Positions 11,506 to 29,968 of a stretch of 64,000 nt of DNA are shown piece after piece. The stretch lies in NCBI RefSeq assembly GCF_013409065.1, contig NZ_JACBZP010000001.1:2924518-2988517 (forward strand), read 5' to 3'. The translations under genes were made by a program, and so were the position numbers. A model generated the notes under the pieces. That model saw only the letters and a program-made list of their open reading frames with translations, searched no databases and was not told the DNA's origin. The DNA is from Spelaeicoccus albus (GTDB lineage: Bacteria; Actinomycetota; Actinomycetes; Actinomycetales; Brevibacteriaceae). Position 1 is the stretch's first letter, and each line of letters begins with the position of its first letter.

Positions 11506-11595
11506 CCGAGTGGTGGCGAATGGCTGCGAAATCGGTGATTTCGCAGCCATTCGCCACCACTCGGCGCGGGCCGGCAGCCATTCGCCACCACTCGG
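11506..11595. repeat. Intergenic palindrome, copy B, plus an extra right half
   Basis: Bases 11506-11564 form a full inverted repeat (CCGAGTGGTGGCGAATGG arm, centre GCTGCGAAATC/GATTTCGCAGC). A second right-hand half, GCAGCCATTCGCCACCACTC, follows at 11573-11595. It lies between the tRNA-Leu terminator and the convergent small-protein gene. It is the same element as at 1400-1460 and 29911-29968. Confidence 0.85.
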
Positions 11596-11642
11596 TGCGG
11601 TTGGACGCAAAAAAGTGGCTCGCTCGGCCCCTGAAAAAACAA

Positions 11643-11674
11643 TTGTGGCCGTGCGATCAATCGCACGGCCACAA
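11643..11674 (-). terminator. Terminator of small-protein gene copy 1
   Basis: A perfect 14-bp hairpin with arms TTGTGGCCGTGCGA and TCGCACGGCCACAA around a 4-nt loop is followed on the minus strand by a run of T residues. It lies 24 nt after the stop codon. Confidence 0.88.
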
Positions 11675-11698
11675 TCAGTTCGCGTCAAATTGCGCGAA

Positions 11699-11842
11699 TT
11701 ACTTGCCCTTATATCCGGGGGCGGCAAAACGGGTAAATGCTTCACCGTATGCACGGTTGTGTTCGAGCCAACGGTTAAACCCGCGAGCAACCACGTTTCC
11801 GCTACGACCCTGGACCTCTTGGCTTTGAGTTGTCTTGCTCAT
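11699..11842 (-). CDS. 47-residue cationic small protein, tandem copy 1
   Basis: The 47-codon gene starts with ATG and ends with TAA. It has a good ribosome site (GAGAGGAG, 7 nt before the ATG) and its own perfect terminator. The product begins MSKTTQSQEVQGRSGN. It continues with an Arg/aromatic-rich middle (GFNRWLEHNRAYGEAF) and ends in a Gly-Tyr-Lys-Gly-Lys tail. It has about eight Lys/Arg against three Glu, six aromatic residues, no Cys and no membrane segment. I do not recognise the family. The protein sequence of copy 2 is identical because the only coding change is silent. A real gene is supported by start, ribosome site, terminator and the silent substitution. Confidence 0.75.
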   Translation of the reverse strand: MSKTTQSQEVQGRSGNVVARGFNRWLEHNRAYGEAFTRFAAPGYKGK

Positions 11843-12024
11843 GTGACTGCTCCTCTCGAATCAAATCTGGGATCTTTCTTAGGCCTTCTGCCTACATCCA
11901 GCCTAACGACCGCACGGACGCTTTTCATCCTCAGGAGACCGTTTGTGAGCAAGCTCTCCCCGCCGCACGCTCGCGCGCCGCGGACGCCGCCCGCGGTCTT
12001 TCGCACAATATGCGTCAAAAACAA

Positions 12025-12056
12025 TTGTGGCCGTGCGATGAATCGCACGGCCACAA
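12025..12056 (-). terminator. Terminator of small-protein gene copy 2
   Basis: Same 14-bp hairpin as copy 1 (arms TTGTGGCCGTGCGA/TCGCACGGCCACAA), with loop TGAA instead of TCAA. It is followed on the minus strand by T-rich sequence. Confidence 0.88.
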
Positions 12057-12080
12057 TCAGTTCGCGTCAAATTGCGCGAA

Positions 12081-12224
12081 TTACTTGCCCTTATATCCGG
12101 GGGCGGCAAAACGGGTAAATGCTTCACCGTATGCACGGTTGTGTTCGAGCCAGCGGTTAAACCCGCGAGCAACCACGTTTCCGCTACGACCCTGGACCTC
12201 TTGGCTTTGAGTTGTCTTGCTCAT
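12081..12224 (-). CDS. 47-residue cationic small protein, tandem copy 2
   Basis: It encodes the same protein as the copy at 11699-11842, with one silent Arg codon change (CGT to CGC) before the Trp. It has the same ribosome site and terminator. It lies downstream of the cyclodeaminase gene on the same strand, with 128 nt between them. Two intact copies suggest selection for dosage, or a very recent duplication. The family is unknown to me. Confidence 0.75.
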   Translation of the reverse strand: MSKTTQSQEVQGRSGNVVARGFNRWLEHNRAYGEAFTRFAAPGYKGK

Positions 12225-12352
12225 GTGACTGCTCCTCTCGAATCAAATCTGGGATCTTTCTTAGGCCTTCTGCCTACATCCAGCCTAACGACCGCACGGA
12301 CGCTTTTCATCCTCACGAGACCGTTTGTGAGCAAGCTCTCCCCGCGTGCGTG

Positions 12353-29877: not shown

Positions 29878-29968
29878 GCCGAGTGGTGGCGAATGGCTGC
29901 TGCCCCTCCTCGAGTGGTGGCGAATGGCTGCGAAATCGCCGATTTCGCAGCCATTCGCCACCACTCGG
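29878..29968. repeat. Intergenic palindrome, copy C, with an extra left half
   Basis: A left half copy, GCCGAGTGGTGGCGAATGGC, lies at 29878-29900. A full 57-nt palindrome follows at 29911-29968, with arms CGAGTGGTGGCGAATGGCTG and centre CGAAATC/GATTTCG. It lies between the convergent ABC exporter and baeRF genes and is the same element as at 1400-1460 and 11506-11595. The extra half is on the opposite side from that of copy B. Confidence 0.85.

Follow-up and report, generated by a model that had tools for sequence, protein, structure and literature searches.

Tandem duplication occurs among some bacterial small RNA (sRNA) genes, and type I toxin-antitoxin loci are often tandemly duplicated. 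Duplicated type I loci such as zorO/zorP have been reported (PMC3919570), and taxonomically restricted (orphan) genes are a recognized class in bacteria (PMC1824705, PMC4765031). Here, we describe a near-identical tandem pair of small gene-like units in a 64,000-nucleotide stretch of the Spelaeicoccus albus genome (the window) and compare it with these systems.

Structure of the tandem units

The two units, designated A and B (Table 1), align over 329 bp without gaps and with exactly three differences (99% identity), at a start-to-start distance of 382 bp; a repeat of this length and identity is not due to chance. The differences are located at unit nucleotides 30 (C/G), 193 (T/C), and 306 (G/C), and one falls in the leader, one in the open reading frame (ORF), and one in the terminator loop. 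The sole coding difference, at Arg24, is silent. A whole-genome search identified exactly two copies of the unit in the source genome, which is a single contig of 4.03 Mb.

In both units, a strong Shine-Dalgarno sequence (AGAGGAG) is located immediately 5' of the ATG. The first-pass annotation had described two 329-bp units with three differing sites, a single silent coding change, and a ribosome site and terminator in each unit, and the gap-free alignment, the Arg24 codons, the AGAGGAG motifs, and the hairpins followed by T runs agree with that description. Its coordinates (11635-12345) were also right, and the strand, which it did not give, is the minus strand. Of the "recent tandem duplication" that it proposed, the duplication stands, whereas a recent origin and gene conversion of older copies would look alike.

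The complement between the leader and the start region is equalled by 1.4% of shuffled leaders, the whole leader folds no better than its shuffles (z of about -0.65), and the accessibility of the start site is nearly independent of the leader. Pairing of CTTGCTCA with TGAGCAAG in a hairpin that would mask the start codon is thus treated here as a weak lead and not as a finding. The fold of the whole unit reaches a z of -3.1, in contrast to that of the leader alone, and the terminator supplies much of the fold energy. A promoter scan covering the sigma-70 type gave no sigma-70-like promoter on either strand of the region.

Table 1. Features of the tandem pair (positions in the window)
Feature	Positions	Strand	Description
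Repeat unit B	12017..12345	minus	Upstream copy with respect to transcription; starts 7 bp past the stop codon of the cyclodeaminase-like gene (FTCD_C domain)
47-codon ORF, copy B	12081..12224	minus	MSKTTQSQEVQGRSGNVVARGFNRWLEHNRAYGEAFTRFAAPGYKGK; Shine-Dalgarno AGAGGAG upstream
Intrinsic terminator, copy B	12022..12059	minus	Stem of 16-17 bp, 4-nt loop, TTTTT
Spacer between units A and B	11964..12016	no strand	53 bp, G+C-rich, unduplicated, unrelated to the units
Repeat unit A	11635..11963	minus	Downstream copy
Leader element, unit A	11936..11953	minus	With CTTGCTCA, perfectly complementary over 8 nt to the start region TGAGCAAG of the same unit; copy B has the same
47-codon ORF, copy A	11699..11842	minus	Protein identical to that of copy B; CGT replaces CGC at Arg24
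Intrinsic terminator, copy A	11640..11677	minus	Stem of 16-17 bp, 4-nt loop, TTTTTT

Genomic setting

A minus-strand run of genes lies 5' of copy B and encodes an IclR regulator, a GcvT-like protein, a formate-tetrahydrofolate ligase, and the FTCD_C protein, whose gene ends the run. No terminator was found between this last gene and copy B. On the other side, copy A is followed by a palindromic repeat, a tRNA-Leu(GAG) gene, and then an M20 peptidase gene. The closest relative (G003) has kept the pair formed by the M20 peptidase (80% identical) and tRNA-Leu genes, and the small gene is absent from it. A homologue of the GcvT-like protein (76% identical) was present in five Brevibacterium-like relatives, in which the fetched regions contained neither the same operon order nor the small gene after it. 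These differences at the tRNA-Leu slot and in the GcvT neighborhoods indicate that the site is accessory. The window showed no duplicated tRNA end of the kind that marks an integrated island.

Past the tRNA-Leu gene of G003 (L098:6586-8018), we read two ORFs as genes resembling an AbiEi/AbiEii antitoxin-toxin pair, suggesting that the tRNA-Leu flank may serve as an accessory-gene site in the family.

The palindromic intergenic repeat has 28-bp arms and a 3-nt loop. It is found next to copy A (11506-11564, with a half unit at 11574-11597) and also at 1403-1457 and 29881-29966, and its arms matched the source genome 208 times (at most two mismatches), versus 0 matches for a reversed control pattern. 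At three sites in the source genome (G000:C1 667100-668800, 732100-733800, and 3465600-3467260), an insertion sequence at the hairpin tip separates the arms by 1476 bp. This element encodes an rve-type integrase, is IS481-like in our reading, and occurs in either orientation; it apparently targets the palindrome at these three sites.

Coding potential, predicted product, and search for relatives

The evidence on whether the 47-codon ORF is translated is mixed. Among dinucleotide-preserving shuffles of the unit, 41% contained an ORF of 47 codons or more, and 3.5% contained one that also had a good ribosome site. The reading frame scores best of the six frames and has a purine bias of 64/64/38% over the three codon positions, while its codon score was matched by 8% of shuffled ORFs (p of about 0.08), and was below those of all 211 real gene segments of equal length. 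In codon adaptation, it ranks under the 1st percentile of real segments. The G+C content is 53%, versus 66% for the window. This low value and the poor codon score would fit DNA that was acquired or arose recently, or a noncoding unit, and we regard the protein as plausible but putative.

Comparison of the two units says little about selection. One coding change was observed among the three differences (1.3 expected), and 22% of all random coding changes, or 32% of transitions, would be silent, so that a single silent change is uninformative and dosage sensitivity cannot be deduced from it. The suggestion in the first-pass annotation of an "abundant or dosage-sensitive" protein thus does not follow, as three changes in 329 bp make a powerless substitution test, and neither abundance, dosage sensitivity, nor upkeep by selection is supported by the computed evidence.

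If made, the product would have a pI of 10.5, a net charge of about +4.6, and a GRAVY value of -0.96. This hydropathy and a best 19-residue Kyte-Doolittle mean of -0.6 indicate a protein without a membrane span. An amphipathic stretch covers approximately residues 13 to 30 (helical moment maximum exceeded by 1.75% of shuffled peptides), and the single-sequence AlphaFold model consists of one helix (residues 4 to 40; mean pLDDT, 73), with which Foldseek returned no match. The product would thus be a soluble, strongly basic, one-helix protein. Judging from its charge and the single-sequence model alone, it would most likely act by binding an acidic partner, i.e., RNA, the ribosome, DNA, or a membrane surface.

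No creditable match to the 47-residue product was obtained in Pfam, NCBIfam, PHROGs, PADLOC, or PDB sequences, and no relative was found in plasmid records, phage records, or IMG/VR, or in two scans of GTDB genomes with four different 8-residue seeds. The collection scans used exact seven- or eight-residue seeds, with which only close relatives are visible. A tblastn search of genomes sampled from the family (60), order (396), class (395), and phylum (396), with overlap between the samples and about 1000 actinobacterial genomes altogether, also revealed no relative. Weak hits other than the source genome's own copies numbered 3 at an E value of ≤0.01 (phylum sample), 31 at ≤0.1 (order sample), and 11 at ≤0.05 (class sample), which is at or below the chance expectation from the E values. 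The weak hits inspected, at nine loci in relatives, either overlapped other ORFs in a different frame or lacked a matching small gene, and they were rejected. A match to the phycobilisome linker CpcN (PDB; E value, 1e-6) was also rejected, since it adds up weak repeat matches and none of its single domains is significant. A Pfam match to NAGLU_N was below the cutoff. Apart from the tRNA, Rfam gave only subthreshold matches, none of them creditable for the unit.

Overall, the interpretation in the first-pass annotation finds partial support. The protein had been called unrecognized, and indeed nothing catalogued matches it. The first-pass annotation had also proposed tblastn as a check and had named the lack of any homologue with a conserved reading frame in related genomes as evidence against its proposal; no such homologue was found in any searched genome, among which the source genome was the only member of its genus. 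The remainder of the family is mostly one large genus, probably Brevibacterium-like. Within these sampled genomes and exact-seed scans, and with the source genome as the sole representative of its genus, the gene has no detectable homologue outside its lineage, and "orphan" here means restricted to a lineage that is otherwise unsampled.

Competing readings and comparison with described systems

We consider it probable that the pair represents a lineage-restricted orphan small gene in two near-identical copies, residing at an accessory site between the tRNA-Leu gene and a one-carbon catabolic operon and putatively encoding a soluble, cationic, one-helix product. A duplicated noncoding sRNA gene, with a transcript of ~250 to 330 nt running to the strong terminator and a fortuitous ORF, is a possible but unlikely alternative. 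The ordinary ORF length, codon usage unlike that of any real gene segment, the fold of the unit, and the absence of protein relatives all speak for such an RNA. However, the combination of an ATG, a strong and correctly spaced Shine-Dalgarno sequence, and an ORF of this length is rare among shuffles, Rfam offers no creditable match, and the fold owes much to the terminator, the leader alone being unremarkable. It is improbable that the units encode a small accessory protein of the upstream operon: copy B lies on the same strand, closely behind the last operon gene with no intervening terminator found, but a leader and a terminator are present in each unit separately, and in the five relatives with the GcvT homologue both the operon order and the small gene are missing from the region fetched.

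A type I toxin-antitoxin-like pair, in which the leader of a small-peptide mRNA would mask its own start codon and an antisense RNA would silence it, is highly unlikely. The near-identical tandem copies, the small ORF, and the leader complement recall such loci, whereas the product is not hydrophobic and has no membrane span, the leader fold is not significant, and the scan for sigma-70-type promoters revealed none for an antisense RNA. A leaderless bacteriocin-type antimicrobial peptide is the least credible reading. Although the genes are duplicated and the product would be short, cationic, and helical with an amphipathic stretch, it is strongly hydrophilic overall, and the neighbors are the M20 peptidase, tRNA-Leu, and folate enzyme genes, neither a transporter nor an immunity gene being adjacent. 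There is also a slim chance that the small proteins, cationic and one-helix, constitute a new family, that they were duplicated under dosage selection, and that translation is gated by leader/start-codon pairing that perhaps tells operon read-through from own-promoter transcription.

In the favored case of an orphan small gene, each unit would have its own transcription, receive read-through from the operon upstream, or both, and read-through is consistent with the lack of a detected terminator before copy B. A soluble basic protein with one helix (residues 4 to 40) and an amphipathic stretch would result, and it would most likely bind an acidic partner. The second copy, whose role is putative, would be a recent duplicate or would have been homogenized with the first by gene conversion.

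Orphan small genes are abundant and largely untested. With two complete, nearly identical copies whose start and stop signals are clear, this pair would lend itself readily to tests of translation and of copy-number effects; otherwise, it leaves current knowledge unchanged. Like other orphan small genes, it is short, has no detectable homologues, is atypical in composition, and occupies an accessory location; it differs from them in that it forms a nearly perfect tandem pair whose signals are complete and whose translation is putative. With the tandem type I toxin loci (Ldr, Ibs, and ZorO/ZorP), it shares duplicated, near-identical small-ORF units and a possible start-masking leader. However, those loci encode a hydrophobic membrane peptide, whereas the product predicted here is hydrophilic and basic, and an antisense RNA is not supported at this locus.
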